Source of the DNA: Dehalobacter sp.
Lineage (GTDB): Bacteria; Bacillota; Desulfitobacteriia; Desulfitobacteriales; Syntrophobotulaceae
Assembly (NCBI GenBank): GCA_023667845.1
Contig: JAMPIU010000095.1
Span: 1 to 64,000 of the forward strand
Direction: 5' to 3'
DNA: 64,000 bases
A model generated the notes under the pieces. The model worked only from the letters and a program-made list of their open reading frames with translations, was not told the origin of the DNA and ran no database searches. This document shows, piece after piece, positions 25,701 to 61,444 of this stretch. The translations under genes were made by a program, and so were the position numbers. Position 1 is the stretch's first letter. Every line of letters starts with the position of its first letter.

Positions 25701-25842
25701 AACGATCGGTGTGCCTTGGAGTTGGGGTTTTGCATCTTTAAATCCTGGATCGAGCATCAATGAAGTGACAATCGGCGTAATTGACCCGACAGCAGGAACA
25801 CCCGAATATAAATGTTGTCTCGTCAATATAAGGAGGGTTTAG
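22795..25842 (+). CDS. fdhA: Selenocysteine formate dehydrogenase catalytic subunit, exported
   Basis: The gene is one 1015-residue selenoprotein read through an in-frame TGA at 23383-23385 (residue 197). The context NEHQARI-U-HAPTVASLSPSFG is the FdnG/FdoG active-site motif, and a SECIS hairpin directly follows the TGA. A Tat signal (RRNFLK, residues 5-10) directs the folded enzyme across the membrane. The [4Fe-4S] site is CHFCSGGC plus Cys84. The rest is the molybdopterin/tungstopterin fold, ending with the cofactor-binding domain (KVEIRCLVTDR). It oxidises formate to CO2 and passes electrons to FdhB and FdhC. The SD AAAGGAGG precedes the ATG. Confidence 0.95.
23383..23420 (+). promoter_or_regulatory. 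Bacterial SECIS element with UGA selenocysteine codon
   Basis: After the TGA, GGTGGC (23397-23402) pairs with GTCACC (23409-23414) around the loop AAGTTT. Distance and loop resemble SelB-binding hairpins of E. coli fdnG and fdhF. Confidence 0.85.
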
Positions 25843-33511: not shown

Positions 33512-33553
33512 GGCATTTTGTTTATTTTTTCACTAAGATGGAGGTGACTTATT

Positions 33554-36238
33554 TTGCTTAAAAATGTTGAGAAATCCAAGATAACACGCAGGGGTTTCTT
33601 AAAAGGAACAGGTGGAGCGGTTGCGTTTTTAGCATTATCAGGCAACTTGTTCCCGATTTCAAAGCAGATCTTTGCCCAAACGGATGGAACAGCCGTGTCC
33701 GAAACCGTAGTAAAACCTGGTCTCTGCCACTCATGTCATCTTGCGAAATGCAGTCTGCTTTACACAGTCAAGGATGGGGTACTTGTTCATGTTGAAGGAA
33801 ACCCGGAGGGGCCCTGGAATAAGGGAAAATGCTGCGTAAGAGGGCAGTCAAGTCCGGCTTTTGTGTATAATCCATATCGGGTAAAATCACCGATGAAGAG
33901 GACCAACCCTAAAAAAGGATTGGATGTCGATCCGGGATGGGTGGAAATCAGCTGGGACGAAGCTATCAACACAATGGTAGAAAAGCTTTCGGCTATTCGC
34001 AAAAGTGATCCGCGCAAGTTGTGGTGGATGCAGGGTTTCCCGGCTTTCCCCAATCAAATAACCGGAATGAGAGCCATTTTCCCGACGGTTTTCGGCACCC
34101 CGAACCAAGGGATGATTACCGGGGCCATGTGTTCGGTACACTTGACCAACGGGCTGGTTCAAGGCGGTTTTGCCCAGTATCCTGATTGGGACTATGCCAA
34201 ATATATTCTCTCGGTAGGGAATACGACAGCACCAAACATCGGGCCTGGAGACGGAGCTGCAAATTATATTGTTGATAAAGTGAAAAGTGGCACACGGTTA
34301 GTCGTTGTCGATCCGCGCTGTTCACCCGAGGCCAAGCTTGGGGAATGGGTTCCGATTAGACCGGCATCGGATTTTCCGTTTATGCTTTCATTGGCCCATG
34401 TCATCCTGCATGAACTGAACACATTTGATGTTTGGTTTGTAAAGAACCGTACAACCGGACCGTACCTGATCAGTCCTGAAGGGGATTACCTGAAGAATGC
34501 CGCCAACAAGCCGCTCGTCTGGGATTCCGTGGCCAAAGCCGCGAAGGCTTTTGATGATCCGAGCATTGGAGATTATGCGCTTGAAGGTTCCTATGAAGTC
34601 AATGGTGTTAAGGTACAGCCTGCTTTTGAACTTCTGAAACAGGGAATGGTTAAATACACGCCGGAATGGGCTGAGGAACTGACGACGATTCCGGCCGCTA
34701 AGATTCGTGAAATTGCGAAGGACCTTATCGAGAATGCCCAGATCGGCAGTACCGTTAACATCAACGGGGTTACCTTGCCGCTTCGCCCGGCTGTAATTTG
34801 CGTCAGCCGCGGATTGACCAGTCATCGTGACGGTCACCATGCATTCTGGATGTCCATGGTCGTTAACCAGTTGATCGGTGCTGTAGCCGTGCCGGGAGGA
34901 AATATTGTGGCCCCTGATCCGAAGGCGCTTACGCCGGGTGAAGACGGTGTCGTCATTCCGGAGAATTTCCATTGCAAATTCACACCTTGGCAATGGCCGC
35001 CGCAAGCACTGGAGGCCAGAGAGTTCCAGCCGTATTGTTTTGACATCACCTACCGCATGATCGATTTGATTCTCGACCCGAAACCCTATTATGCTAACTA
35101 TACCCCGGAAATGTTCATTAGTTTCGCCGCAAACCTTTATACGAAGGGCGGAAATCCGGAACGGATCGGGGAAGCCTTAGCCAAGATACCGTTTGTTGTA
35201 TCGATTGCTCACCATGTTGATGAACACACAGCCTTCGCCGATCTGGTCATGCCGGAAGCATCTTATCTGGAGATGCCGACAGCTTTCTACTTCCAAATGT
35301 ACAGACCGGGATCAGCAAGATTAGGCAACATCCATATCGGGCACAGAGAGATCATTAAACCTGTCAATAATGTGCGGATTATGGACGAAGTGTTCACCGA
35401 TATCGCGGAACGGATGGGAATGCTCTATGGGCCGGGACCGGACAAACTGAATTTTATGACCAACATTATTTTGGGCATTCCGCCCCAATTCTGGCTTGAT
35501 CTGGGCAAGAAACACAAGGCGGCGGATGTTGTCGAGCGTTACTTGAAAGGGCAATACGGTCCGCAAATCACGCTTGATGCTTTGGCCGCAAAAGGTTTTG
35601 TCTATGATGAGATGAAACCGCAGGATGTCTACAACTACACCGCTTTTCCTGGCAAAACGACACGTCACCCGCTTTACAATGTTTATTACAAGAGAGCGGG
35701 AGAACAGTTGCTGGCCGGCATGGAAAAAGCAGGAGTTAAACATCCGGGCTTCAGTGACGAAGAGATTAAGTTTTACTATACGGGTGTGCCGGCTTGGAAG
35801 CCGACGCCAACGCAAAGTGCGCCGGCAGAATATGATCTTTACGGCGTCGTTTGGAAAATTCCCCAATTCCTGTTTGATATCAGCGGCGTTGGGACCAACC
35901 CCTGGCTTGTCGAAACAGCAGAACAAAACCCCGATTTCGGCAAAATTCTGCTGAATACGGCAACTGCGGACAAAAAAGGATTAAAAGACGGGGATATGGT
36001 CTATGTCGAAAGTCAATTCGGTGGGAAAATCGGGCCTTATCCCGTTAAAACCACTGAGTTGCTGCATCCCGATTGCATGGGCGTTGCATCAGGTATAGGG
36101 CGTTTAGTCTCGACAATGAATCCGTTGTCAAAGAAAAATATTCCGTATAACCGCTTGCTTGCCTCAACATGGGAGAGCATTGAGGTTATAACCGGGGGTA
36201 TTGAAAACAGCCCTAGAATGAAAATAACGAAGGCATAG
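33554..36238 (+). CDS. Exported molybdopterin oxidoreductase (CISM catalytic subunit), copy 1
   Basis: The 894-aa protein has a Tat signal (TRRGFLKG, residues 11-18, then a hydrophobic stretch), so it works outside the membrane. A [4Fe-4S] site is formed by Cys58, Cys61, Cys66 and Cys93 or 94. A cysteine in GAMCSVHLTNG (residue 192) is the candidate Mo ligand. Molybdopterin-dinucleotide-binding segments follow (VVDPRCSPEAK, HHVDEHTAFADLVMPEASY). With the next two genes it forms a complex of the polysulfide/thiosulfate/arsenate-reductase type; the substrate is not determined. It starts with TTG, 7 bases after GGAGGTG. The downstream YeeE and rhodanese genes hint at sulfur chemistry for this copy. 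Confidence 0.9.
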   Translation: MLKNVEKSKITRRGFLKGTGGAVAFLALSGNLFPISKQIFAQTDGTAVSETVVKPGLCHSCHLAKCSLLYTVKDGVLVHVEGNPEGPWNKGKCCVRGQSSPAFVYNPYRVKSPMKRTNPKKGLDVDPGWVEISWDEAINTMVEKLSAIRKSDPRKLWWMQGFPAFPNQITGMRAIFPTVFGTPNQGMITGAMCSVHLTNGLVQGGFAQYPDWDYAKYILSVGNTTAPNIGPGDGAANYIVDKVKSGTRLVVVDPRCSPEAKLGEWVPIRPASDFPFMLSLAHVILHELNTFDVWFVKNRTTGPYLISPEGDYLKNAANKPLVWDSVAKAAKAFDDPSIGDYALEGSYEVNGVKVQPAFELLKQGMVKYTPEWAEELTTIPAAKIREIAKDLIENAQIGSTVNINGVTLPLRPAVICVSRGLTSHRDGHHAFWMSMVVNQLIGAVAVPGGNIVAPDPKALTPGEDGVVIPENFHCKFTPWQWPPQALEAREFQPYCFDITYRMIDLILDPKPYYANYTPEMFISFAANLYTKGGNPERIGEALAKIPFVVSIAHHVDEHTAFADLVMPEASYLEMPTAFYFQMYRPGSARLGNIHIGHREIIKPVNNVRIMDEVFTDIAERMGMLYGPGPDKLNFMTNIILGIPPQFWLDLGKKHKAADVVERYLKGQYGPQITLDALAAKGFVYDEMKPQDVYNYTAFPGKTTRHPLYNVYYKRAGEQLLAGMEKAGVKHPGFSDEEIKFYYTGVPAWKPTPTQSAPAEYDLYGVVWKIPQFLFDISGVGTNPWLVETAEQNPDFGKILLNTATADKKGLKDGDMVYVESQFGGKIGPYPVKTTELLHPDCMGVASGIGRLVSTMNPLSKKNIPYNRLLASTWESIEVITGGIENSPRMKITKA

Positions 36239-36252
36239 GAGGATGATTACCC

Positions 36253-36861
36253 ATGAGATATGGTATGATAATTGACCTAACTCGGTGTATCGGCTGCGAT
36301 GCCTGCACTGTTGCCTGCAAACAGACAAATGGAACCGGACCTGGCGAATTCTGGTGCAGGGTGTATAAGACTCAGGAGGGGAAATACCCGGATGCCCGGC
36401 CGGTTTATTCTCCTGTACTTTGCAACCATTGTGATAATCCGCCCTGTAAAAAAGTATGTCCGGTAGGAGCAACACAAAAACAGGCAGATGGTATCGTTGC
36501 GGTTGATGCGGACAAATGCATCGGCTGCAGGTACTGCATTGCGGCTTGCCCGTATGATGTCAGGCATTTTGTTACGTCAACTTCTAAAGGATATTATCCG
36601 GAAAAAGGGCTTTCGACTTTTGAAAAGGCCATGTACCCGCTTCATCAGGAGGGCACTGTCGAAAAATGTGAGTTTTGTCAAGGCAGATTGGCCGAGGGCA
36701 AGCAACCGGCCTGTGTCCAGGCTTGTACGGCTGTTGCCAGAATATTTGGGGATCTTGATGATCCGAATAGCGAAGCTGCAAAATTGGTGAGTTCCGGAAA
36801 AGCGTATACACTTTTGCCTGAAGCCGGTACAAATCCAAGAGTGTACTATATCAAAGGATAG
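36253..36861 (+). CDS. Four-cluster ferredoxin subunit (CISM beta), copy 1
   Basis: The 202-aa protein is a DmsB/PsrB/NrfC-type electron-transfer subunit with four [4Fe-4S] motifs: [42 protein letters not shown] and [20 protein letters not shown]. It has no signal and would be exported together with the Tat-bearing catalytic subunit. It links the Mo site to the NrfD-type membrane subunit. An AGGAGG SD overlaps the end of the upstream gene. Confidence 0.93.
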
Positions 36862-36879
36862 AAGGGGTGGTGAAAAAAT

Positions 36880-37959
36880 ATGGATACACTGAATGAAGTG
36901 ACAACAATAGAAAAATTTAGAAATTCTCCGGGCAATAAAAAAATAATTGGTTTTGGTGTTTTGGCTTTAATTGGCATAGCCGCCTGGATCATTCAGCTTA
37001 CTGTAGGATTAGATGTCTTAGCAGCAGGGAAGAGCATGGCATGGGGCGTTTACATTGCATCCTTCTTTCTGCTGGCCGGCACCGGAGGCGGATTGCTGAT
37101 TCTCTCAGCTTTGGGAGATTTCGGAATACTTTCTGCCGTTAAAATGCAGCGCCGTTCGTTGCTGATCGCTGCGATTGCTTGTTTCATCGCTGCCGGTTTT
37201 ACGATTCTGATGGATATTGGCAGGCCGGAGCGTGTCCTCAACATGCTTTTTTCTCCCAATTTCTCGTCTATGTTTATATGGGATTTTTACTCTCTGGGTC
37301 TGTCTTTGATTCTAGGCATTGTTTGCCTCTTTAGCAAACCAAGCAAAATTCTCGCTAGTTTAACAACGTTGGTCGCCTTGGCTTTGTTAATTGTTGAAGG
37401 ATTAATTTTGACTGTCAGTACCGGAAACCCCATGTGGACCAGTGTTTTGACGCCTTTGTTGTTTGTGGTCGAGGCGTTTGTAACGGCGACAGCGGTTGCT
37501 TTGGTTATAAGAGATACAAAGGAAAGCGATGGCCGTTTGGAGAAAACATTAGCTGTTTTATTACTGGCAACCTTGGCAGTCAGCCTTGTCGAAATTGCTG
37601 CTGTAAGCCTTCTCGGAATGCATGCAGAAGCCAAAACGAGTTTTCAGCTTCTCCTGAGCGGAAACTTAGCGCCGTTTTTCTGGGGACAGATCCTTCTGGG
37701 CATCCTATTGCCTTTCGTTTTGCTGGTAAAATACAAGAGCGGCAATAACGTGAAAGCGGCCTCAATCTTGGCTTTTGCGGGGATATTTGTAGCCAAGATG
37801 AATTTGCTGGTGGCGGGGCAAGCATTGCCGTTTGAAAATTTCCAGGTCACCTACGTACCGTCGTTGGTGGAGTGGGGAGGATTTATTGGAGGGTTAGGAA
37901 TTGCGGCTTTCTTGTATATTCTAGGTATACTTGTTCTACCGGTAAAAAAGGATTTATAG
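36880..37959 (+). CDS. NrfD/PsrC-type membrane subunit, copy 1
   Basis: The 359-aa protein has about nine to ten hydrophobic helices and belongs to the NrfD/PsrC quinol-interacting family (ASFFLLAGTGGGLLILSALG near the N-terminus; DIGRPERVLNMLFSPNFSSM). It exchanges electrons between the quinone pool and the ferredoxin subunit and carries no heme. Copy 2 differs at the penultimate residue (Asp here, Gly there). An AGGGGTGG SD precedes the ATG. Confidence 0.92.
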   Translation: MDTLNEVTTIEKFRNSPGNKKIIGFGVLALIGIAAWIIQLTVGLDVLAAGKSMAWGVYIASFFLLAGTGGGLLILSALGDFGILSAVKMQRRSLLIAAIACFIAAGFTILMDIGRPERVLNMLFSPNFSSMFIWDFYSLGLSLILGIVCLFSKPSKILASLTTLVALALLIVEGLILTVSTGNPMWTSVLTPLLFVVEAFVTATAVALVIRDTKESDGRLEKTLAVLLLATLAVSLVEIAAVSLLGMHAEAKTSFQLLLSGNLAPFFWGQILLGILLPFVLLVKYKSGNNVKAASILAFAGIFVAKMNLLVAGQALPFENFQVTYVPSLVEWGGFIGGLGIAAFLYILGILVLPVKKDL

Positions 37960-38004
37960 AGGGGTACACCTATCCTAATTGAGAATACAAAATAAATTAG
38001 GAAA

Positions 38005-40556: not shown

Positions 40557-40820
40557 TCAATGATTTAAGATATTTGGTACTATGGTGGGCAATGTGATTT
40601 CCATCTGCCTCAATCCGGCAGACCTATGGTCAGCGGAAAATGGAAATATTGGATGCCCGATTCGGTGTAATTTCTTTGGAGTCCACCAAATATATAGTGC
40701 AAAAAATATGCCAACATATTGAAGTGCTGTTACCAACATCCGAATTGTTTCTGAAGTTGTTATTTTTCGCGGCATTTTTTTAGGAAAGCTAATAGTGGAA
40801 GCCCATTTCTCCTTTTGCAT
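40557..40820 (-). CDS. Doubtful ORF with one membrane helix
   Basis: An 87-codon frame has one possible membrane helix (LQYVGIFFALYIWW) but no SD before its first ATG and no recognised family. An AAGGAG inside it could serve a later start. It overlaps the upstream dyad of the next operon at its 5' end. It could be a small membrane protein cotranscribed with the zinc-ribbon gene, or chance. Confidence 0.25.
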   Translation of the reverse strand: MQKEKWASTISFPKKMPRKITTSETIRMLVTALQYVGIFFALYIWWTPKKLHRIGHPIFPFSADHRSAGLRQMEITLPTIVPNILNH

Positions 40821-40843
40821 ATTTATCGAAAAGTGGACAAAAG
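40812..40843 (+). promoter_or_regulatory. Upstream dyad (probable activator site), sigma-54 operon A
   Basis: CTTTTGCA (40812-40819) and TGGACAAAAG (40834-40843) form a dyad CTTTTG..CAAAAG with 26-bp spacing. The same dyad with the same spacing is found before the paralogous operon at 44010-44041. The 24-base block beginning TGGACA is conserved with one change. Confidence 0.6.
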
Positions 40844-40953: not shown

Positions 40954-40969
40954 TGGCACGGATAATGCA
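40954..40969 (+). promoter_or_regulatory. Sigma-54 (-24/-12) promoter of molybdoenzyme operon A
   Basis: TGGCACGGATAATGCA has GG and GC separated by exactly 10 bases and matches the sigma-54 consensus TGGCAC-N5-TTGC closely. It lies 111 bp after the upstream dyad and 127 bp before the gene. Confidence 0.75.
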
Positions 40970-41095
40970 CTTATATACGCGTGGAGTCCAAAATTAAATG
41001 AATAGAGCTGGAGAAGTTTCTTGGGGTCACGCCTCTGATCCAGGTGCTTGCTCACAGTCTCTATTCGCATAAAAAAATTTATCGGAGGGATAAGA

Positions 41096-43345
41096 ATGGA
41101 ATCAAAATGGCAGCAAACATTGGCTGACGGTACGGTGGTAACCAGGACTTGTGCATGGTCCCCCCCGGGTTGCCATTCCGTTGGCTGTGGTCTCAGATTG
41201 TATGTCAAAGACGGGAAACTCGTTAAGGTAGAAGGCGATCCCGAACATCCAATCACGAAAGGACGGTTGTGTGTTCGCTGTTTAGCTTTGAAAGAATACG
41301 TCTATCATCCGGATAGGATTGTTTATCCGATGAAACGTGACAGGAAAGACCGCGGCAAAAACAAATGGGTACGTACTACCTGGGATGAAGCGTATGATAT
41401 CATCGCCAAGGAAACACACCGGATCCAGAAAGAATATGGCAACGAAGCAATCATGTTATTCGATGGCACCGGTCGAGAAGCTACAATTTACCATACAACC
41501 CTTTGTAATGCTGTTCTGCAGACTCCGAATAACTGTTATGCGCAGAGCGGCTGGTCCTGTTACGGACCGCGTATCGCCATTACTGCCTTTGTGCTGGGTT
41601 CCGGTGTGCCGGAAATGGACTATGCAGCCAATTTACCGGGGCGGTATGATGATCCTCAGTACGTATTGCCGAAATATGTTATGCTCTGGGGCAAGGATCC
41701 ACTGCCTTCAAATCCCGATGGACTCTGGGGACACGCCCTCATTGAAATGATGAAGCGTGGAACGAAGGTTATCATGATCGATCCCAGGACGACATGGCTG
41801 GGTACGAGAGCAGCACATGTGCTTCGCCTGCGTCCCGGTACTGACGCGGCTCTGGCGTTGGCTCTCCTGAACGTTATCATCAACGAAGACCTTGTTGACC
41901 ATGAGTTTATTGATAAATGGTGCCATGGCTTCGAAGAACTTAAAGAACGCGTCCAACAATATCCTCCGTCAAAGGTTGCGGAAATCACAGGAGTCCCTGC
42001 AGAACAAATCATTGAGGTCGCGCGCATTCTTGGTACGAAAAAACCCAACGCTATTAGCTGGGGCCTCGCCATTGACCAGAATCCTAATGGTGTTCAGGTG
42101 GGACAGGCGGTGCTGTCAATAGCGGCGATTACCGGTAATCTTGACATCCCGGGAGGGACCACCATTGGTTTTGCTGTCGGCGGACTTCAGGACGCCCAGG
42201 GTGCTAAAGATGTTACGGAAGTAAGCGCTGCAGACCTGCCGGCGGGTCTTTACGAAAAACGTATCGGGCTTAATGAATATCCTGCTTTGGCCGCGACAAT
42301 CAATCATGCTCATCCTGACTTATGTTTGGATACGCTGGAAACCGGCAAACCCTATGCCATTAAGATGGGCTGGATCCAAGGCACCAATTTAATCTCGCCT
42401 ACGAACACGGCTCAGCCCAACAGGTGGTATAAAAAATTGAAGGAACTGGAATTTGTCGCAGCGGCAGATACCTTCATGACACCGACTATCATGGCCATCG
42501 GTGATGTCTTCCTACCTGTCTCCACCTTTGCGGAGCATGACGGTGTAATCCGTACCCACTCCGGCATGAATACATTCTATACAGGATCAACCAACAAAGC
42601 GCTTACGGTCGGTGAAGCAAGATCCGACTTGGAGATCATTTATGGACTCGGTCGTGTCATGAATCCGGCAGCATTCCCAATGCCTTTCGAAGAGTTTTTT
42701 GAAATGCAGACCATGCATGGAGAGCCTTTTAGATACAAAGATCTTAAAGAGAAGGTCTTAATTCAGGCCCCACCTGTCTATAAGAAGCATGAAAAGGGTC
42801 TGCTCCGTCGTGACGGTCAACCAGGTTTTGAAACAACTTCAGGTAAGGTCGAACTTCGTTGCAGCATGTACGAAGCCTTTGGGGATGATCCGCTACCGTA
42901 TTATCAAGAGCCTCGTTACGGTCCAAAGAGCGAGTATGCCAAAGATTATCCCCTGATTTTGACCACCGGAGCCAGGAAATATACTTCATTCCATTCGGAA
43001 CACCGCCAGATTCCCTCGCTGCGTGAAATCACTCCCGATCCGTTGGTGGAAATCCATCCTAAAACCGCTGCCAAATACGGTATTAAAGCAGGCGACTGGG
43101 TTAAAGTTGAAAATATGTTCGGCTCCGCCAAGTTGAAAGCGAATGTGACTCCCATTGTCTCTCCTGACCAAGTGATGTGTGCTCATGGCTGGTGGTTCCC
43201 GGAAGAAGACGGGGAAGAGCCAAACTTGTTCGGTGTATGGAAATCCAATATCAACACCATGATTCCGCACAAAGAAATCGGGAAGCTTGGATTCGGTGCA
43301 CCTTACAAGAGCATGATCTGCAAAATTTCTAAAGCACAAGACTAA
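41096..43345 (+). CDS. Cytoplasmic molybdopterin oxidoreductase A
   Basis: The 749-aa enzyme belongs to the DMSO-reductase superfamily but has no Tat or Sec signal, so it is cytoplasmic. The N-terminal Fe-S motif has unusual spacing: Cys19-x6-Cys26-x4-Cys31 and Cys59. WSCYGPRI around Cys155 aligns with the V-U-HGPT region of formate dehydrogenase, making Cys155 the candidate Mo ligand. Cofactor-binding segments (IDPRTTWLGTRAAHVLRLRPGTD; C-terminal SAKLKANVTPIV) are intact. The start is the ATG at 41096 after CGGAGGG. It is a close paralog of the enzyme at 44247. Candidate activities include hydroxylation, dehydroxylation or hydration of a small organic molecule; none is proven by sequence. 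Confidence 0.85.
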   Translation: MESKWQQTLADGTVVTRTCAWSPPGCHSVGCGLRLYVKDGKLVKVEGDPEHPITKGRLCVRCLALKEYVYHPDRIVYPMKRDRKDRGKNKWVRTTWDEAYDIIAKETHRIQKEYGNEAIMLFDGTGREATIYHTTLCNAVLQTPNNCYAQSGWSCYGPRIAITAFVLGSGVPEMDYAANLPGRYDDPQYVLPKYVMLWGKDPLPSNPDGLWGHALIEMMKRGTKVIMIDPRTTWLGTRAAHVLRLRPGTDAALALALLNVIINEDLVDHEFIDKWCHGFEELKERVQQYPPSKVAEITGVPAEQIIEVARILGTKKPNAISWGLAIDQNPNGVQVGQAVLSIAAITGNLDIPGGTTIGFAVGGLQDAQGAKDVTEVSAADLPAGLYEKRIGLNEYPALAATINHAHPDLCLDTLETGKPYAIKMGWIQGTNLISPTNTAQPNRWYKKLKELEFVAAADTFMTPTIMAIGDVFLPVSTFAEHDGVIRTHSGMNTFYTGSTNKALTVGEARSDLEIIYGLGRVMNPAAFPMPFEEFFEMQTMHGEPFRYKDLKEKVLIQAPPVYKKHEKGLLRRDGQPGFETTSGKVELRCSMYEAFGDDPLPYYQEPRYGPKSEYAKDYPLILTTGARKYTSFHSEHRQIPSLREITPDPLVEIHPKTAAKYGIKAGDWVKVENMFGSAKLKANVTPIVSPDQVMCAHGWWFPEEDGEEPNLFGVWKSNINTMIPHKEIGKLGFGAPYKSMICKISKAQD

Positions 43346-43365
43346 TTAAGGTAGGAGGTAAAGAG

Positions 43366-43707
43366 ATGTCAAATTATGGTTTATTAATTGACTATCAATA
43401 TTGCTCCGGCTGTAAAAGCTGCGAGATAGCATGCAGAAACGAAAAAGAGCTTCCAGTTGGCAAATGGGGAATCAAAGTACTGGAAATGGGACCATGGGAA
43501 TTTGAGCCGGGAGTTTATGAATGGAACTATATTCCTATGCCGACTTCATACTGTGATCTTTGCGCGGACAGAGTTGCCCAGGGAAATGGAAACGTCCCCT
43601 CCTGCGTGCTTCATTGTCTGGCCAGCGCCATTGAATACGGCACAGTAGATGAACTGAGTGCTAAGATGAAAGAAAAAGGTAAAAAGGTATATTTAATTAA
43701 GCCTTAA
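43366..43707 (+). CDS. Small two-cluster ferredoxin partner A
   Basis: The 113-aa protein has CSGCKSCEIACRNE near the N-terminus and a second set, YCDLCADRV and SCVLHCLASAIEYG, enough for two [4Fe-4S] clusters. It resembles a stripped-down DmsB-type subunit, with half the usual clusters. Being encoded 20 bp after the molybdoenzyme with a GGAGG SD, it is its likely electron carrier. Compared with partner B it has two extra residues (GN) between the second cysteine pair. Confidence 0.85.
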   Translation: MSNYGLLIDYQYCSGCKSCEIACRNEKELPVGKWGIKVLEMGPWEFEPGVYEWNYIPMPTSYCDLCADRVAQGNGNVPSCVLHCLASAIEYGTVDELSAKMKEKGKKVYLIKP

Positions 43708-43736
43708 CAACGGTATATTTCCTGCTAAAAGTCGTC

Positions 43737-43766
43737 AAGCCGCACCCTGCTAAAAGGGTGTGGCTT
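43737..43766 (+). terminator. Hairpin after ferredoxin A
   Basis: AAGCCGCACCCT pairs with AGGGTGTGGCTT around a 6-base loop. There is no direct T-run. A related hairpin follows ferredoxin B at 46873-46908. Confidence 0.45.
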
Positions 43767-43811
43767 CGGCTGTTTGAATATAGGCCTTTTTTTCAGGGAG
43801 GAGAGATAAAC

Positions 43812-44027
43812 TTGTGTTATTTTTGCAGTCCTACATGTGAGCATTGCCGGCCGAAATATCTGATTTGTCCAAATTGCAGTACGAAAAATATTCTGGAACT
43901 TGATAGTTGTCTAAAATGTCGTTCTCCTTTAACAGGAGAAATGAAGGAGGCCCGATATGAAGAATGGAGAAAAAACAAGGCAAAAAACGATTCTCCTGAA
44001 ACAAGTAAACTTTTGCATGATTTTTAA
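43812..44027 (+). CDS. Cys-rich zinc-ribbon protein (71 aa)
   Basis: From the TTG at 43812 (7 bases after GGGAGGAG) the product reads MCYFCSPTCEHCRPKYLICP with further knuckles CPNC and CLKC, giving four CxxC pairs, then a charged helical tail. An in-frame ATG at 43758 lies before the SD. It is placed between the two sigma-54 operons, and its 3' end overlaps the upstream dyad of operon B. It may be an assembly or regulatory factor. The family is not recognised. Confidence 0.6.
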   Translation: MCYFCSPTCEHCRPKYLICPNCSTKNILELDSCLKCRSPLTGEMKEARYEEWRKNKAKNDSPETSKLLHDF

Positions 44028-44045
44028 AAAATGGACAAAAGTTTA
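44006..44045 (+). promoter_or_regulatory. Upstream dyad (probable activator site), sigma-54 operon B
   Basis: TAAACTTTTG (44006-44015) and CAAAAGTTTA (44036-44045) form a perfect 10-bp inverted repeat whose CTTTTG and CAAAAG cores are 26 bp apart, as before operon A. Confidence 0.65.
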
Positions 44046-44098
44046 AAAAATGCACAACGTAGTAAAGTAAAAAGCGCAGTTTGTCTCAGTGATCCCCT

Positions 44099-44114
44099 TG
44101 GTACGGATCTTGAA
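44099..44114 (+). promoter_or_regulatory. Sigma-54-like promoter of molybdoenzyme operon B
   Basis: TGGTACGGATCTTGAA keeps the GG, the ACGGAT core and the 10-base spacing of the operon A promoter, but has GA in place of the -12 GC. It is weaker by consensus. Confidence 0.5.
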
Positions 44115-44246
44115 ATAGATCTCTTATGGAGTCTATAACAAATTGAATAGGACTGGAGATGTTCCTTGGGGTCATGCCTCTGATCCCGATACTGATTACG
44201 GTAACTATTCGCTCAACGATTAAGAAAAAGTATTGGAGGAATAAGA

Positions 44247-46496
44247 ATGGATTCAACATGGCGGCAAACATTAGCCGACGGTACGGTGGTAACCAGAACT
44301 TGTGCATGGTCACCACCGGGATGCCATCCCGTTGGCTGTGGTCTCAAATTGTTTGTCAAAGACGGAAAACTCATCAAGGTAGAAGGTGATCCCGAACACC
44401 CGATCACGAAGGGTCGGTTATGTGTTCGTTGTTTAGCTTTAAAAGAATATGTCTATCATCCGGATAGGATTATCTATCCGATGAAACGTGCTAGAGAAGA
44501 TCGCGGTAAGAACAAGTGGGAGCGCATCACCTGGGAAGAGGCTTTTGATACCATCGCTAAAGAAACACGCCGGGTCCAAAAAGAATACGGCAACGAAGCA
44601 ATCATGGAATTCGACGGTACCGGCAGAGAAGGTACGGTTTATCATACAACCCTTTGTAATGCTGTATTGCAGACTCCGAATGATTGCTATGCACAGAGCG
44701 GTTGGTCCTGCTACGGCCCACGTATCGCCATCACCGCGTTTATGCTGGGTTCCGGCGTGCCGGAAATGGACTATGCCGGAGCTCTACCCGGCCGGTATGA
44801 TAATCCTGAATACGTATTGCCGAAATATGTTTTACTCTGGGGCAAGGAACCGCTCAATTCCAACCCCGATGGACTTTGGGGCCACAGTCTCATTGAAATG
44901 ATGAAACGCGGAACGAAGGTGATCATGGTCGATCCCAGAATGACATGGCTGGGTACGAGATCAGCGCATGTGCTCCGACTGCGTCCCGGTACCGATGCGG
45001 CTATGGCCTTGGCGATCCTGAACGTTATCATCAACGAAGACCTTGTTGACCACGATTTTGTTAATAAATGGTGCTTTGGCTTTGAAGATCTTAAGAAACG
45101 TGTCCAAGAGTATACGCCGTCAATGGCTTCGGAAATCACAGGGGTTCCCGCAGAACAGATCATCGAAGTCGCCCGTATTCTCGGTACGAAAAAACCCAAC
45201 GCTATTAGCTGGGGATTATCCATTGACCAGAATCCCAATGGTGTTCAGGTTGGACAGGCGGTATTGTCTATAGCGGCGATTACCGGCAACCTCGACATTC
45301 CTGGCGGCACCTTATTGGGCTTTGCCGTCGGCGGACTTCAGGATGCTCAGGGAGCGAGAGACGTTTCGAAAGTAAATGCGGCTGACCTGCCGGCGCATCT
45401 CCACGAAAAACGTATTGGTTGTGAAGAATATCCTGCTGTGGCTGCGACGGCCAATCATGCACATCCCGACCTATCCTTGGAAACGCTGGAAACCGGCAAA
45501 CCTTATCCCATTAAGATGGGCTGGATCCAAGCTACCAATATTATTACGCCTACTTGTTCGGCTCAGCCTAAGAGATGGCATAAAGTATTGAAGGAACTGG
45601 AGTTTGTCGTAGCAGCAGATGTCTTCATGACGCCGACCATTATGGCCTGCGGTGATATCTTCCTGCCTGTATCCACCTTTGCGGAGCATGAAGGCATTGT
45701 GCGTACGCACTTTGGCATGAACCCTGCTATTGAGGGTGCCACCATTCCAGCGATTAAAGTCGGTGAAGCAAAATCCGACCTGGAGATCATTTATGGACTC
45801 GGTCGTATCCTTAACCCTGAAGCATTTAATATGGATTGGCCGGCGTTTCTCAATTCACAAGTCATGCACGGACCGGGACACACTTATGAACAACTTCGCG
45901 AGAAGGTCGTAATTCAGTCCAGATTTGCCTATAGGAAATATGAAAAGGGTATACTGCGTCGTGACGGTCAGCCCGGCTTTGAAACGACTTCAGGTAAGGT
46001 TGAACTCTACTGCAGCATGTATGAAGCCTTTGGTGATGACCCACTGCCGTATTATCAAGAACCGCGTTATAGTCCTCTGAGTGAATATGCCAAAGATTAT
46101 CCGCTGGTTTTGACCACCGGCGCCAGAAGAATTACGTCGTTCCACTCGGAACACCGCCAGATCCCCTCGCTGCGTGAAATCACTCCTGATCCGTGGGCGC
46201 AAATCCATCCTGAGACCGCTGCCAAATACGGCATCCAAAATGGCGACTGGGTCAACATTGAAAATATGTTTGGCTCTGCCAAGCTGAAGGCGGAAGTAAC
46301 ACCCATTGTCAGACGCGACTGCGTTTCAGCAGCCCATGGCTGGTGGTTCCCTGAAGAAAATGGGGAAGAGCCAAACCTGTACGGTGTATGGAAATCTAAC
46401 GTCAACAGCCTGATCCCCCATAAAGAAATCGGTAAGCTTGGATACGGCGCACCCTATAAGAGTATGATCTGCAAAATTTCCAAAGCACAAGATTAA
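44247..46496 (+). CDS. Cytoplasmic molybdopterin oxidoreductase B
   Basis: This 749-aa paralog of enzyme A has the same length, the same Cys-x6-Cys-x4-Cys cluster motif (RTCAWSPPGCHPVGCGLKLF) and the same WSCYGPRI candidate Mo-ligand motif. Differences concentrate in the last third (for example NPAIEGATIPAI and NMDWPAFLNSQVMHGPGHTY), where substrate-channel residues often lie, so the two enzymes may act on different but related compounds. It lacks a signal peptide. A TTGGAGGAA SD precedes the ATG. It has its own upstream dyad and sigma-54-like promoter. Confidence 0.85.
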   Translation: MDSTWRQTLADGTVVTRTCAWSPPGCHPVGCGLKLFVKDGKLIKVEGDPEHPITKGRLCVRCLALKEYVYHPDRIIYPMKRAREDRGKNKWERITWEEAFDTIAKETRRVQKEYGNEAIMEFDGTGREGTVYHTTLCNAVLQTPNDCYAQSGWSCYGPRIAITAFMLGSGVPEMDYAGALPGRYDNPEYVLPKYVLLWGKEPLNSNPDGLWGHSLIEMMKRGTKVIMVDPRMTWLGTRSAHVLRLRPGTDAAMALAILNVIINEDLVDHDFVNKWCFGFEDLKKRVQEYTPSMASEITGVPAEQIIEVARILGTKKPNAISWGLSIDQNPNGVQVGQAVLSIAAITGNLDIPGGTLLGFAVGGLQDAQGARDVSKVNAADLPAHLHEKRIGCEEYPAVAATANHAHPDLSLETLETGKPYPIKMGWIQATNIITPTCSAQPKRWHKVLKELEFVVAADVFMTPTIMACGDIFLPVSTFAEHEGIVRTHFGMNPAIEGATIPAIKVGEAKSDLEIIYGLGRILNPEAFNMDWPAFLNSQVMHGPGHTYEQLREKVVIQSRFAYRKYEKGILRRDGQPGFETTSGKVELYCSMYEAFGDDPLPYYQEPRYSPLSEYAKDYPLVLTTGARRITSFHSEHRQIPSLREITPDPWAQIHPETAAKYGIQNGDWVNIENMFGSAKLKAEVTPIVRRDCVSAAHGWWFPEENGEEPNLYGVWKSNVNSLIPHKEIGKLGYGAPYKSMICKISKAQD

Positions 46497-46518
46497 TAAA
46501 TTGTAAGGAGATAAAGCG

Positions 46519-46854
46519 ATGTCAAATCATGGTTTACTGATTGATTATCAATATTGCTCCGGCTGTAAAAGCTGCGAGATAGCCTGTAAAAACGAAAAAG
46601 AGCTTCCCATAGGCAAATGGGGGATCAAGGTACTGGAAATGGGCCCCTGGGAATTTGAGCCGGGAACTTATGAATGGAACTATATTCCCACACCGACTTC
46701 ATATTGTGATCTCTGCGCCGACAGAGTTGCCGAAGGAAATGTCCCCTCCTGTGTTCTTCATTGTCTGGCCAGCGCCATCGAATACGGAACAATAGATGAG
46801 CTGAGTGCCAAAATGAAAGAAAAAGGGGAAAAAGTGTATTTAATTAAGCCCTAA
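46519..46854 (+). CDS. Small two-cluster ferredoxin partner B
   Basis: The 111-aa protein is nearly identical to partner A: CSGCKSCEIACKNE, YCDLCADRV and SCVLHCLASAIEYG. It starts 22 bp after enzyme B with a moderate AAGGAG SD. It likely shuttles electrons to or from enzyme B in the cytoplasm. The strong similarity suggests that A and B carriers could be interchangeable. Confidence 0.85.
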   Translation: MSNHGLLIDYQYCSGCKSCEIACKNEKELPIGKWGIKVLEMGPWEFEPGTYEWNYIPTPTSYCDLCADRVAEGNVPSCVLHCLASAIEYGTIDELSAKMKEKGEKVYLIKP

Positions 46855-47032: not shown

Positions 47033-49048
47033 ATGAGAGGAATAGGTCAGTATCATCGAATGACGAAGGAACGCTGGGAAGGGATCATCCGTTTTCGAAA
47101 TGATTTGCTGGCAGGGAAGAAGGTAGACTGGCAGACTCCGTATTTGCCGCCCGAAATACTGTCGTCATGGAAGCGTTGTTTGGCGGAAAATTTGGACATG
47201 AATAGTTATGACCAAAGACACCCGATTATTGAGATGGATGACTCAGCAATGGACGACGCTTTAATCGGCAGTATTCCGATCTCTTCGTTGATGTCGATTT
47301 TTGAGGATATTCCATATTCCGATGACTTTCCCCCTGTCTTTTTCATGCTGGACATAAAGGGAAATGTGCTGTACCGCAATCTAAAACCCTCTGAGGCTGC
47401 ACGGAGCGAACTTTTTAAAGCAGTCGCTCAAGAGAATATTATTGGAACCACCGCAAACAGTTTGGCCAAATTATATAAAAGGCCTTTTCAGCTTCAAGGG
47501 CCGGAGCACTTTTGCAATACGCTTGGGAATAGTGTAGGGACCTGTGTACCCATTTTTGACACCAAGGGTGAAATGGTTGCCGCGCTGACAACAGCCCAGC
47601 TGTTAAATGATACCCCATGGGATGATACGTTTCAAAATTTATGTTTTCAAACATTCCAATTGGTGACGTTGATCGCAGCTGCACTGGAAAGCCGTCTTCA
47701 TTTTGAGGAAAAATGTTCCGAACTGGAAAAAGCCAATTCACGTTTGGAGACAACGATGTCCATCATCGATGAGAGTATTATCACTATCGATCGGCAGGGC
47801 AATATTATCGGAATCAACAATGAAGGGTGCCGTATTTTTTCTCGTATAGCTGATGATTTAAAGCCAACAAACATCTGCAAATATTTATTGGACAATTCAC
47901 GGTTGATGGCGGCCGTTAATGCAGGACAATCTGCGGATTTCGAGGAGGCATTGTGCATTAATGGGGAAATACAGTCCTACTTGATTGCCTGCCGCCCGAT
48001 TTTAAAAAAGGGTCAGAAGACACCCGAAGGAGCTGTCCTACAACTGAACCCAACCGAACGGATCAACAAACAATCTGCTGTCCGGGCGGGGAGTTCAGCC
48101 GTTTTTACTTTTGAGAATATTATGGGACAAAATTCATATTTTGAGCAGGTTAAAGCAGTGGGCAAAAAAGTAGCGGCTTCACCCGAAAATGTTTTATTGG
48201 TAGGGGAGAGCGGGACAGGCAAAGAGCTTTTCGCTCAGGCAATTCACAACAGCTATCGGCCTAATGGACCTTTCGTTGCCATCAATTGCGCAGCCATTCC
48301 GAGAGAATTGATCGAGAGTGAATTATTTGGTTATGAAGGCGGGAGTTTCACCGGAGCAAACCGTAAAGGCCGGCCGGGAAAAATCGAATTGGCCAATGAC
48401 GGGACGCTGTTTTTGGATGAGATCGGGGATATGCCGTTGGAAGTTCAGCCCGTTCTTTTGCGTGTTCTGCAGAATAATGAAGTAACACGAATTGGCGGTT
48501 CCGTAGCGAAAAAGATTAATTTTCGCGTGATTGCCGCTACGAATAAAAATCCCTTGGAACTGATCGAGAAGAAAATGTTTCGGGAAGATCTGTATTATCG
48601 ATTATCGGTATTTTATATTTATATACCGGCTTTGCGGGAGAGGAGAGATGATATTCCTCATTTATGCCGTTATTTTATCAAAAACTATTGCCGTAAAATG
48701 AGGAAGTCGGTACCTGAATTATCTATCAAGATGGAGAATTACCTGCAGAACTTGTATTGGCCCGGCAATATTCGTCAGTTGGAACACGCGATTATCTATG
48801 CGGTCAACATGGCAGATGGCAGTGCTATTTGCCCAGAGCATCTGCCGCCGGATGTAACCGGCAATTTTGGGAAGAATACACTTTTGGAAAAGCCCCATGA
48901 ATTTAAATTTCTCAAAACAATGGAAAAGAAACAGATTGAGGATACGCTTATAAATAATCATAACAATGTCCGTTTGGCGGCAGAAAAGCTTGGCATCTGC
49001 AAATCGACGATGTACCGAAAACTTAAGGAATATAATATTGACTTCTGA
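47033..49048 (+). CDS. Sigma-54-dependent transcriptional activator (GAF-PAS-AAA-Fis)
   Basis: The 671-aa regulator has a GAF-like sensor region (about 70-220, with [20 protein letters not shown] typical of AcoR/DhaR-type proteins) and a PAS domain (about 240-350). The AAA+ domain has Walker A GESGTGKE (about 391), the sigma-54 contact loop GSFTGA (about 437; Ser replaces the commoner Ala) and FLDEIGDM. A Fis-type helix-turn-helix is at about 630-668 ([20 protein letters not shown]). It lies just after the two sigma-54-type operons, so it is their probable activator, with the ligand sensed by GAF or PAS. GGGGAGGG precedes the ATG. Confidence 0.93.
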
Positions 49049-56978: not shown

Positions 56979-57019
56979 GCATTTTATTTATTTTTTCACT
57001 AAGATGGAGGTGACTTATT

Positions 57020-59704
57020 TTGCTTAAAAATGTTGAGAAATCCAAGATAACACGCAGGGGTTTCTTAAAAGGAACAGGTGGAGCGGTTGCGTTTTTAGCA
57101 TTATCAGGCAACTTGTTCCCGATTTCAAAGCAGATCTTTGCCCAAACGGATGGAACAGCCGTGTCCGAAACCGTAGTAAAACCTGGTCTCTGCCACTCAT
57201 GTCATCTTGCGAAATGCAGTCTGCTTTACACAGTCAAGGATGGGGTACTTGTTCATGTTGAAGGAAACCCGGAGGGGCCCTGGAATAAGGGAAAATGCTG
57301 CGTAAGAGGGCAGTCAAGTCCGGCTTTTGTGTATAATCCATATCGGGTAAAATCACCGATGAAGAGGACCAACCCTAAAAAAGGATTGGATGTCGATCCG
57401 GGATGGGTGGAAATCAGCTGGGACGAAGCTATCAACACAATGGTAGAAAAGCTTTCGGCTATTCGCAAAAGTGATCCGCGCAAGTTGTGGTGGATGCAGG
57501 GTTTCCCGGCTTTCCCCAATCAAATAACCGGAATGAGAGCCATTTTCCCGACGGTTTTCGGCACCCCGAACCAAGGGATGATTACCGGGGCCATGTGTTC
57601 GGTACACTTGACCAACGGGCTGGTTCAAGGCGGTTTTGCCCAGTATCCTGATTGGGACTATGCCAAATATATTCTCTCGGTAGGGAATACGACAGCACCA
57701 AACATCGGGCCTGGAGACGGAGCTGCAAATTATATTGTTGATAAAGTGAAAAGTGGCACACGGTTAGTCGTTGTCGATCCGCGCTGTTCACCCGAGGCCA
57801 AGCTTGGGGAATGGGTTCCGATTAGACCGGCATCGGATTTTCCGTTTATGCTTTCATTGGCCCATGTCATCCTGCATGAACTGAACACATTTGATGTTTG
57901 GTTTGTAAAGAACCGTACAACCGGACCGTACCTGATCAGTCCTGAAGGGGATTACCTGAAGAATGCCGCCAACAAGCCGCTCGTCTGGGATTCCGTGGCC
58001 AAAGCCGCGAAGGCTTTTGATGATCCGAGCATTGGAGATTATGCGCTTGAAGGTTCCTATGAAGTCAATGGTGTTAAGGTACAGCCTGCTTTTGAACTTC
58101 TGAAACAGGGAATGGTTAAATACACGCCGGAATGGGCTGAGGAACTGACGACGATTCCGGCCGCTAAGATTCGTGAAATTGCGAAGGACCTTATCGAGAA
58201 TGCCCAGATCGGCAGTACCGTTAACATCAACGGGGTTACCTTGCCGCTTCGCCCGGCTGTAATTTGCGTCAGCCGCGGATTGACCAGTCATCGTGACGGT
58301 CACCATGCATTCTGGATGTCCATGGTCGTTAACCAGTTGATCGGTGCTGTAGCCGTGCCGGGAGGAAATATTGTGGCCCCTGATCCGAAGGCGCTTACGC
58401 CGGGTGAAGACGGTGTCGTCATTCCGGAGAATTTCCATTGCAAATTCACACCTTGGCAATGGCCGCCGCAAGCACTGGAGGCCAGAGAGTTCCAGCCGTA
58501 TTGTTTTGACATCACCTACCGCATGATCGATTTGATTCTCGACCCGAAACCCTATTATGCTAACTATACCCCGGAAATGTTCATTAGTTTCGCCGCAAAC
58601 CTTTATACGAAGGGCGGAAATCCGGAACGGATCGGGGAAGCCTTAGCCAAGATACCGTTTGTTGTATCGATTGCTCACCATGTTGATGAACACACAGCCT
58701 TCGCCGATCTGGTCATGCCGGAAGCATCTTATCTGGAGATGCCGACAGCTTTCTACTTCCAAATGTACAGACCGGGATCAGCAAGATTAGGCAACATCCA
58801 TATCGGGCACAGAGAGATCATTAAACCTGTCAATAATGTGCGGATTATGGACGAAGTGTTCACCGATATCGCGGAACGGATGGGAATGCTCTATGGGCCG
58901 GGACCGGACAAACTGAATTTTATGACCAACATTATTTTGGGCATTCCGCCCCAATTCTGGCTTGATCTGGGCAAGAAACACAAGGCGGCGGATGTTGTCG
59001 AGCGTTACTTGAAAGGGCAATACGGTCCGCAAATCACGCTTGATGCTTTGGCCGCAAAAGGTTTTGTCTATGATGAGATGAAACCGCAGGATGTCTACAA
59101 CTACACCGCTTTTCCTGGCAAAACGACACGTCACCCGCTTTACAATGTTTATTACAAGAGAGCGGGAGAACAGTTGCTGGCCGGCATGGAAAAAGCAGGA
59201 GTTAAACATCCGGGCTTCAGTGACGAAGAGATTAAGTTTTACTATACGGGTGTGCCGGCTTGGAAGCCGACGCCAACGCAAAGTGCGCCGGCAGAATATG
59301 ATCTTTACGGCGTCGTTTGGAAAATTCCCCAATTCCTGTTTGATATCAGCGGCGTTGGGACCAACCCCTGGCTTGTCGAAACAGCAGAACAAAACCCCGA
59401 TTTCGGCAAAATTCTGCTGAATACGGCAACTGCGGACAAAAAAGGATTAAAAGACGGGGATATGGTCTATGTCGAAAGTCAATTCGGTGGGAAAATCGGG
59501 CCTTATCCCGTTAAAACCACTGAGTTGCTGCATCCCGATTGCATGGGCGTTGCATCAGGTATAGGGCGTTTAGTCTCGACAATGAATCCGTTGTCAAAGA
59601 AAAATATTCCGTATAACCGCTTGCTTGCCTCAACATGGGAGAGCATTGAGGTTATAACCGGGGGTATTGAAAACAGCCCTAGAATGAAAATAACGAAGGC
59701 ATAG
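57020..59704 (+). CDS. Exported molybdopterin oxidoreductase (CISM catalytic subunit), copy 2
   Basis: The 894-aa translation is identical to that of the gene at 33554: same TTG start and SD, Tat signal TRRGFLKG, [4Fe-4S] cysteines 58, 61, 66 and 93/94, and candidate Mo-ligand Cys192. Enzyme function must be the same as for copy 1. The difference between the operons therefore lies in dosage, chaperone and downstream genes, since copy 2 lacks the YeeE and rhodanese genes. Confidence 0.9.
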   Translation: MLKNVEKSKITRRGFLKGTGGAVAFLALSGNLFPISKQIFAQTDGTAVSETVVKPGLCHSCHLAKCSLLYTVKDGVLVHVEGNPEGPWNKGKCCVRGQSSPAFVYNPYRVKSPMKRTNPKKGLDVDPGWVEISWDEAINTMVEKLSAIRKSDPRKLWWMQGFPAFPNQITGMRAIFPTVFGTPNQGMITGAMCSVHLTNGLVQGGFAQYPDWDYAKYILSVGNTTAPNIGPGDGAANYIVDKVKSGTRLVVVDPRCSPEAKLGEWVPIRPASDFPFMLSLAHVILHELNTFDVWFVKNRTTGPYLISPEGDYLKNAANKPLVWDSVAKAAKAFDDPSIGDYALEGSYEVNGVKVQPAFELLKQGMVKYTPEWAEELTTIPAAKIREIAKDLIENAQIGSTVNINGVTLPLRPAVICVSRGLTSHRDGHHAFWMSMVVNQLIGAVAVPGGNIVAPDPKALTPGEDGVVIPENFHCKFTPWQWPPQALEAREFQPYCFDITYRMIDLILDPKPYYANYTPEMFISFAANLYTKGGNPERIGEALAKIPFVVSIAHHVDEHTAFADLVMPEASYLEMPTAFYFQMYRPGSARLGNIHIGHREIIKPVNNVRIMDEVFTDIAERMGMLYGPGPDKLNFMTNIILGIPPQFWLDLGKKHKAADVVERYLKGQYGPQITLDALAAKGFVYDEMKPQDVYNYTAFPGKTTRHPLYNVYYKRAGEQLLAGMEKAGVKHPGFSDEEIKFYYTGVPAWKPTPTQSAPAEYDLYGVVWKIPQFLFDISGVGTNPWLVETAEQNPDFGKILLNTATADKKGLKDGDMVYVESQFGGKIGPYPVKTTELLHPDCMGVASGIGRLVSTMNPLSKKNIPYNRLLASTWESIEVITGGIENSPRMKITKA

Positions 59705-59718
59705 GAGGATGATTACCC

Positions 59719-60327
59719 ATGAGATATGGTATGATAATTGACCTAACTCGGTGTATCGGCTGCGATGCCTGCACTGTTGCCTGCAAACAGACAAATGGAA
59801 CCGGACCTGGCGAATTCTGGTGCAGGGTGTATAAGACTCAGGAGGGGAAATACCCGGATGCCCGGCCGGTTTATTCTCCTGTACTTTGCAACCATTGTGA
59901 TAATCCGCCCTGTAAAAAAGTATGTCCGGTAGGAGCAACACAAAAACAGGCAGATGGTATCGTTGCGGTTGATGCGGACAAATGCATCGGCTGCAGGTAC
60001 TGCATTGCGGCTTGCCCGTATGATGTCAGGCATTTTGTTACGTCAACTTCTAAAGGATATTATCCGGAAAAAGGGCTTTCGACTTTTGAAAAGGCCATGT
60101 ACCCGCTTCATCAGGAGGGCACTGTCGAAAAATGTGAGTTTTGTCAAGGCAGATTGGCCGAGGGCAAGCAACCGGCCTGTGTCCAGGCTTGTACGGCTGT
60201 TGCCAGAATATTTGGGGATCTTGATGATCCGAATAGCGAAGCTGCAAAATTGGTGAGTTCCGGAAAAGCGTATACACTTTTGCCTGAAGCCGGTACAAAT
60301 CCAAGAGTGTACTATATCAAAGGATAG
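59719..60327 (+). CDS. Four-cluster ferredoxin subunit (CISM beta), copy 2
   Basis: The 202-aa sequence is identical to the protein at 36253, with all sixteen cluster cysteines retained. It connects the copy 2 catalytic subunit to its NrfD-type membrane partner. Confidence 0.93.
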
Positions 60328-60345
60328 AAGGGGTGGTGAAAAAAT

Positions 60346-61425
60346 ATGGATACACTGAATGAAGTGACAACAATAGAAAAATTTAGAAATTCTCCGGGCA
60401 ATAAAAAAATAATTGGTTTTGGTGTTTTGGCTTTAATTGGCATAGCCGCCTGGATCATTCAGCTTACTGTAGGATTAGATGTCTTAGCAGCAGGGAAGAG
60501 CATGGCATGGGGCGTTTACATTGCATCCTTCTTTCTGCTGGCCGGCACCGGAGGCGGATTGCTGATTCTCTCAGCTTTGGGAGATTTCGGAATACTTTCT
60601 GCCGTTAAAATGCAGCGCCGTTCGTTGCTGATCGCTGCGATTGCTTGTTTCATCGCTGCCGGTTTTACGATTCTGATGGATATTGGCAGGCCGGAGCGTG
60701 TCCTCAACATGCTTTTTTCTCCCAATTTCTCGTCTATGTTTATATGGGATTTTTACTCTCTGGGTCTGTCTTTGATTCTAGGCATTGTTTGCCTCTTTAG
60801 CAAACCAAGCAAAATTCTCGCTAGTTTAACAACGTTGGTCGCCTTGGCTTTGTTAATTGTTGAAGGATTAATTTTGACTGTCAGTACCGGAAACCCCATG
60901 TGGACCAGTGTTTTGACGCCTTTGTTGTTTGTGGTCGAGGCGTTTGTAACGGCGACAGCGGTTGCTTTGGTTATAAGAGATACAAAGGAAAGCGATGGCC
61001 GTTTGGAGAAAACATTAGCTGTTTTATTACTGGCAACCTTGGCAGTCAGCCTTGTCGAAATTGCTGCTGTAAGCCTTCTCGGAATGCATGCAGAAGCCAA
61101 AACGAGTTTTCAGCTTCTCCTGAGCGGAAACTTAGCGCCGTTTTTCTGGGGACAGATCCTTCTGGGCATCCTATTGCCTTTCGTTTTGCTGGTAAAATAC
61201 AAGAGCGGCAATAACGTGAAAGCGGCCTCAATCTTGGCTTTTGCGGGGATATTTGTAGCCAAGATGAATTTGCTGGTGGCGGGGCAAGCATTGCCGTTTG
61301 AAAATTTCCAGGTCACCTACGTACCGTCGTTGGTGGAGTGGGGAGGATTTATTGGAGGGTTAGGAATTGCGGCTTTCTTGTATATTCTAGGTATACTTGT
61401 TCTACCGGTAAAAAAGGGTTTATAG
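60346..61425 (+). CDS. NrfD/PsrC-type membrane subunit, copy 2
   Basis: The 359-aa sequence equals the protein at 36880 except for Gly in place of Asp at the penultimate position. It is the quinone-side subunit of the copy 2 complex and the last gene of this operon; a terminator follows 20 bp downstream. Confidence 0.92.
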   Translation: MDTLNEVTTIEKFRNSPGNKKIIGFGVLALIGIAAWIIQLTVGLDVLAAGKSMAWGVYIASFFLLAGTGGGLLILSALGDFGILSAVKMQRRSLLIAAIACFIAAGFTILMDIGRPERVLNMLFSPNFSSMFIWDFYSLGLSLILGIVCLFSKPSKILASLTTLVALALLIVEGLILTVSTGNPMWTSVLTPLLFVVEAFVTATAVALVIRDTKESDGRLEKTLAVLLLATLAVSLVEIAAVSLLGMHAEAKTSFQLLLSGNLAPFFWGQILLGILLPFVLLVKYKSGNNVKAASILAFAGIFVAKMNLLVAGQALPFENFQVTYVPSLVEWGGFIGGLGIAAFLYILGILVLPVKKGL

Positions 61426-61444
61426 AGGAGAGTATTATGTAAGA

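Follow-up and report, generated by a model that had tools for sequence, protein, structure and literature searches.

The window, a 64,000-nucleotide stretch of Dehalobacter sp. DNA, contains a locus of two tandem molybdoenzyme units, a small gene between them, and a regulator gene behind them, all on the forward strand. Unit 1 is composed of a 749-residue bis-MGD molybdoenzyme (catalytic subunit 1, 41096–43345) and a 113-residue electron-transfer subunit with two [4Fe-4S] clusters (43366–43707). Unit 2 repeats this arrangement with a second 749-residue catalytic subunit (44247–46496; 81% identity to subunit 1) and a 111-residue electron-transfer subunit, also with two [4Fe-4S] clusters (46519–46854; 91% identity to partner 1). 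The intervening ORF (43812–44027) has a TTG start and a GGAGG Shine-Dalgarno sequence and encodes a 71-residue protein with two four-cysteine zinc ribbons, a recurrent companion of the enzyme family. A PrdR/DhaR-like, sigma-54-dependent enhancer-binding activator of 671 residues, probably a substrate-responsive regulator, is encoded at 47033–49048. A first-pass annotation had described the two enzymes and their small partners, and the ORFs, lengths, and coordinates agree with it; the zinc-ribbon ORF, the downstream activator, and a duplicated upstream element were absent from that account. Both copies are under purifying selection and are therefore maintained: the enzymes have a dN/dS of 0.18 and their partners one of 0.06.

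The catalytic subunits match PF00384, PF01568, and PF04879 above cut-off (Mo-binding, MGD-binding, and Fe4S4 domains). Their N-termini, MESKWQQ... and MDSTWRQ..., lack a twin arginine and display no visible Tat or Sec signal, bearing out the missing export signal noted earlier. In contrast, the formate dehydrogenase at 22795 of the same window begins with SRRNFLKLSG. Each partner contains eight cysteines, arranged as CxxCxxCxxxC and CxxC-x11/13-CxxxC. Compared with a four-cluster beta subunit, the partner matches the two outer cysteine groups, the first and the last, and lacks the two-cluster insert between them. The partners had been regarded as half the size of those of relatives. They do hold two clusters, but the relatives with three or four are distant members of the DMSO-reductase family, and nearly all close relatives examined have equally half-size partners.

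In both enzymes the N-terminal cluster motif is C19-x6-C26-x4-C31-x27-C59, read as RTC19AWSPPGC26H[SP]VGC31G...GRLC59VRC, and the candidate metal ligand is Cys155 in GWSC155YGPR. The spacing and the cysteine first reported from the letters are thus present in both sequences. The odd spacing is a trait of the family that varies within it and is not peculiar to the window pair, judging from the sequences of 147 distinct relatives. Cys31 and Cys59 are kept in 135/147 of these; among those 135, position 26 is Cys in 107 and Asp in 28, and 68 carry a Cys at position 19 or 20. None of the 28 Asp26 members lacks a Cys at 19/20. The pattern is suggestive of co-variation between positions 19 and 26, although Asp26 is concentrated in one subtree and may reflect a single event. 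The remaining 12 relatives (L051, L053, L054, L055, L060, L062, L087, L137, L140, and L142, together with L079 and L096) have lost the cluster cysteines, and 10 of the 12 fall in one subclade (RSNTWSPPGSHPVGYGVKV).

His27 and Cys155 are invariant in 147/147 relatives, including the 12 without cluster cysteines. Cys155 aligns with Cys141, the tungsten ligand of acetylene hydratase. His27 directly follows the second cluster cysteine and occupies the position of Asp13 in acetylene hydratase. Since it is retained where the cluster is gone, His27 would more likely be catalytic than a ligand. The invariance of these two residues, set against the dispensable cluster ligands, indicates which mutants to make. 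The region around the N-terminal cluster is modelled poorly, with a pLDDT of 63 for residues 21–30, which leaves Cys19, Cys26, Cys31, and Cys59 as candidate ligands of a single cluster.

Unit 1 is preceded by a sigma-54 (-24/-12) promoter, TGGCAC-GGATA-ATGC, on the forward strand at 40954–40968 (TGGCACGGATAATGC). It matches 9/10 consensus positions and lies 142 bases upstream of the ATG. A UAS-like dyad, CTTTTG-N20-CAAAAG, is located farther upstream (40812–40843, no strand assigned) and is a candidate site to which the activator would bind. Its right arm falls in a 24-bp element that is repeated upstream of unit 2 and has two matches in the window, with 0 expected. A second dyad with the same arms and spacing (44010–44041, no strand assigned) lies upstream of unit 2, which has a degenerate -24/-12 element, TGGTAC-GGATC-TTGA (44099–44113, forward strand). 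In this element the -12 box is missing its GC, and the match falls below the threshold of the promoter scan; expression of unit 2 may accordingly be weak or unlike that of unit 1. The leader between promoter and start is well conserved in both units (41000–41090 and 44125–44235; TTGGGGTCAYGCCTCTGATCC); it has no Rfam match and is not a common motif in the upstream regions of relatives. An Rfam scan of the whole locus revealed no riboswitch or other RNA family.

Sigma-54 control extends to related loci. The genome encodes rpoN, and most of the Bacillota copies examined have a similar sigma-54 activator no more than about 6 kb away. When 400 bases upstream of 35 Bacillota genes were scanned, a -24/-12 match at ≥8/10 positions was present in 24/35 regions, whereas 200 dinucleotide-shuffle sets averaged 1.7 such regions and never exceeded 6; matches at 9/10 positions numbered 17 versus 0.2. 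Although related loci do not count as independent, these numbers draw on many genomes and paralogues. The dehydroxylase genes discussed below have regulators of the LuxR or LysR type next to them in Gordonibacter and Eggerthella; in the case of the Eggerthella enzymes, activators of the LuxR type have been shown to switch on the genes in response to the enzymes' substrates. By analogy, the Bacillota activator may do the job of the LuxR-type regulators in substrate-responsive induction.

The closest solved sequence is acetylene hydratase, with an E-value of 4e-77 that improves to 5e-135 with a family profile. The predicted structure (pLDDT 88.9, pTM 0.91) also has acetylene hydratase as its best fold match, with a Z-score of 39.5 and an rmsd of 2.4 Å over 691 residues. 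The closest genomic relatives are enzymes of Bacillota, Gordonibacter, and other Eggerthellaceae. A maximum-likelihood tree built by a quick method puts both window proteins in a 64-row clade with an SH-aLRT of 99. This clade comprises enzymes of Gordonibacter, Eggerthellaceae, and Bacillota; acetylene hydratase, polysulfide reductase, and formate dehydrogenase all fall outside it. The long-branch outgroup positions are unsure, but the position of the window pair deep in the clade is independent of them. The nearest tree neighbours of the pair are a protein from a genome of the same genus (58% identity), two G. pamelaeae proteins (54% and 49%), and a protein of an uncultured bacterium (48%).

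Gut bacteria use the catechol dehydroxylase family to remove hydroxyl groups from plant catechols. The Gordonibacter-type members are cytoplasmic and consist of a small bis-MGD subunit without a Tat signal and a small 4Fe-4S protein, and acetylene hydratase is their closest characterised relative outside the group (PMC7028382, PMC11887054). Two of them, GPA_25810 and GPA_25800, are described in the literature as (+)-Eldh1 and (+)-Eldh2, colocalised and 74% identical. Within the clade are the products of two neighbouring genes of G. pamelaeae 7-10-1-b, located near 2.59 Mb, which are 73.8% identical to each other. On the basis of this identity, adjacency, and map position, we infer that they represent (+)-Eldh1/(+)-Eldh2. 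A literature search with the GPA_ locus tags gave no matches, and Dodh, Gp Hcdh, Gs Vadh, and Eadh1/2 were therefore not mapped to sequences.

The window pair resembles the Gordonibacter-type enzymes (Dodh, Gp Hcdh, Gs Vadh, (+)-Eldh1/2, and Eadh1/2) in clade, as tested with the presumed Eldh1/2 pair, and in size class, 749 residues fitting the range of about 750–800 without Tat. The likeness extends to the cytoplasmic location, the adjacent two-cluster 4Fe-4S subunit, the Cys ligand motif, and the missing canonical first cluster cysteine; in the presumed Eldh enzymes, position 19 is occupied by Thr, and C26-x3-C follows. The window pair differs in its Bacillota host and shares 43% identity over about 745 residues with the presumed Eldh pair. 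It also has a sigma-54 activator rather than a LuxR/LysR regulator, and no adjacent MFS transporter of the kind that Gordonibacter clusters contain; a LuxR/LysR regulator and an MFS transporter in the cluster are typical of Coriobacteriia and do not define the enzyme. The flanks of the locus include no catechol-specific gene or transporter, the nearest MFS gene found being at 62394. The Eggerthella-type enzymes (Dadh, Cadh, and El Hcdh) share the broad family and, from the literature, the predicted chemistry, but they differ in their Tat export, larger size, membrane anchoring, and ferredoxin with four clusters; no sequence in the tree could be assigned to one of them by name.

These comparisons bear on the earlier suggestion of an undescribed subfamily. 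The Gordonibacter type is itself marked by the half-size partner, the absent signal, and the lack of the canonical first cysteine, and the clade is supported by an SH-aLRT of 99, so the suggestion is not supported. The first-pass annotation had proposed a phylogeny with characterised family members and had named clear placement in a clade of known substrate and the same motif as evidence against itself. The placement in a characterised clade was obtained; a member combining the exact motif with a known substrate was not identified. The kind of enzyme is a known one, and what is new is its occurrence in an unstudied host, under a different switch, and with an overlooked companion gene. Desulfitobacterium has been named among carriers of putative dehydroxylases (PMC7028382), and a literature search found no assayed Bacillota member of the family. 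Searches for relatives gave only 30%-identity matches on plasmids and one distant fragment on viral contigs. The Gordonibacter genomes of L061, L056, and L065 (G073, G074, and G076) each contain more than 30 family matches with E < 1e-60.

The window enzymes are likely to be cytoplasmic enzymes that are induced by their substrate, reductively dehydroxylate catechol-type aromatics, and probably serve as electron sinks. This reading draws on the clade placement, an architecture that matches the published definition, the invariance of Cys155 and His27, the fold, and the sigma-54 context. Among the substrate classes guessed earlier, catechol dehydroxylation is the best supported, and acetylene hydration and transhydroxylation fare poorly. 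A redox-neutral hydration or dehydration like that of acetylene hydratase (PDB 2E7Z) is favoured by the best solved match in both sequence and fold and by the aligned metal-ligand cysteine. It is nonetheless very improbable. Asp13, essential in acetylene hydratase, is replaced by His27, and the cluster motif is C-x2-C-x3-C...C there versus C-x6-C-x4-C here, two differences on which membership in that group was rejected. Furthermore, acetylene hydratase is a non-redox tungsten enzyme without a dedicated electron-transfer partner, whereas such a partner, superfluous for a hydratase, is present in every unit, and the tree groups the window pair with the catechol dehydroxylases. The least probable reading is hydroxyl transfer between aromatic rings, as catalysed by pyrogallol-phloroglucinol transhydroxylase (PDB 4V4C). 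That enzyme shares the DMSO-reductase superfamily, is soluble and two-subunit, acts on polyphenols, and is matched by Foldseek. However, its large subunit matches with an E-value of 2e-8 and ranks far behind acetylene hydratase (4e-77), formate dehydrogenase, and polysulfide reductase. Its small subunit is of another kind (E 0.0016), and the two groups form separate clades in published trees (PMC7028382); membership was rejected on the E-values of both subunits.

The reductive removal or reduction of another group on an aromatic or enol-type molecule would leave the molybdenum centre and the two-cluster partner unchanged. Substrates are known for few members of this very large family, no relative above about 45% identity was linked to a named activity, and identity to the presumed characterised pair is only 43%. 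The genome also carries several reductive-dehalogenase-family genes, and the organism therefore probably respires organic acceptors. Even so, a target group other than hydroxyl is unlikely, given that the clade members with reported activity are all catechol dehydroxylases in the literature, and that the architecture and adjacent dedicated activator point to inducible use on one substrate class.

For a catechol dehydroxylase, the following sequence of events can be proposed. A catechol-type aromatic or close analogue would act as the ligand of the adjacent sigma-54 activator, which would turn the genes on from the -24/-12 promoter; promoter and activator are both seen in the sequence. Electrons from a low-potential donor would reach the metal by way of both clusters in the small partner and, probably, the N-terminal cluster of the enzyme. 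By homology, the metal would be bis-MGD molybdenum held by Cys155, and molybdenum rather than tungsten would be expected as in Gp Hcdh. The reduced molybdenum would then remove one ring hydroxyl as water to give a mono-phenol, with His27, at the Asp13 position of acetylene hydratase, as a conceivable acid/base. Each of the two copies probably has its own substrate.

The Gordonibacter enzyme Gp Hcdh is a Mo enzyme that dehydroxylates hydrocaffeic acid; it supports respiration and has been connected with ATP formation. For D. hafniense, growth on vanillate proceeds through O-demethylation and then requires an electron acceptor, so such organisms could produce catechols themselves. The window enzymes might accordingly have an electron-sink or respiratory role, for example, by consuming the catechols that remain once methoxy-aromatics have been O-demethylated. 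URO-D-family genes were considered as a hint of an O-demethylase and set aside, the family being too broad for any conclusion. Catechol dehydroxylase-type enzymes have been studied almost only in gut Coriobacteriia; the present locus extends them to sigma-54-controlled systems in an anaerobe with reductive-dehalogenase-family genes, and the adjacent regulators may be used for finding substrates.

The zinc-ribbon gene seems to be an overlooked companion of the family. The window protein has only weak zinc-ribbon matches in Pfam and NCBIfam. Double zinc-ribbon genes recognised by a general pattern reach a density of 0.100 per kb in the 1.5 kb around the enzymes versus 0.0048 elsewhere in the same loci, a 20-fold enrichment beside the enzyme genes. 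In a whole-genome search of 73 genomes of the order, using the zinc-ribbon sequence families A4 and A5 and an E-value below 1e-150 for enzyme presence, the gene was found in 12/15 genomes with the enzyme and 0/58 without (Fisher p 2.5e-11). The seed sequences came from 6 of the 15 enzyme genomes; with these excluded, the counts are 6/9 versus 0/58 (p about 8e-7). Species relatedness weakens both p-values. Several copies first seen as distant adjoin further family members, as in L237 with the order AB-AB-zinc ribbon-activator, and the copies L234, L235, L236, and L242–L245 have no adjoining enzyme in the stretch read. The gene stands beside the enzyme family in both Bacillota and Coriobacteriia (L165, L194–L197, L203, L208–L210, L237–L241, L158, and L159).

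A literature search found no paper joining 'catechol dehydroxylase' with 'zinc ribbon', and zinc is unmentioned in the main catechol dehydroxylase papers searched. The protein could tentatively be viewed as a dedicated, undescribed third component that is required for activity in Bacillota and Coriobacteriia, where it would assist maturation or docking or act as an electron carrier that binds metal. In the scheme above, it would most likely serve in assembly or docking, which is a guess and the weakest step. If true, such a requirement may be part of the reason why expression of the enzymes in standard hosts is difficult, and the companion is a concrete candidate for a missing component.

Elsewhere in the window, a 4.4-kb block is present in two copies (33521–37962 and 56987–61428) that differ by one mismatch. 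It encodes a PhsA/PsrA-like molybdoenzyme, a four-cluster FeS subunit, and a membrane anchor, and each copy follows a different TorD-like gene. The repeat may have arisen by gene conversion or a duplication of very recent date, or may stem from the assembly. The formate dehydrogenase alpha subunit (22795–25842) has a Tat signal at its start and is split near 23386 by a TGA in frame, as would fit a selenocysteine codon. A group II intron domain (Rfam RF02005) is matched at 1226–1337.
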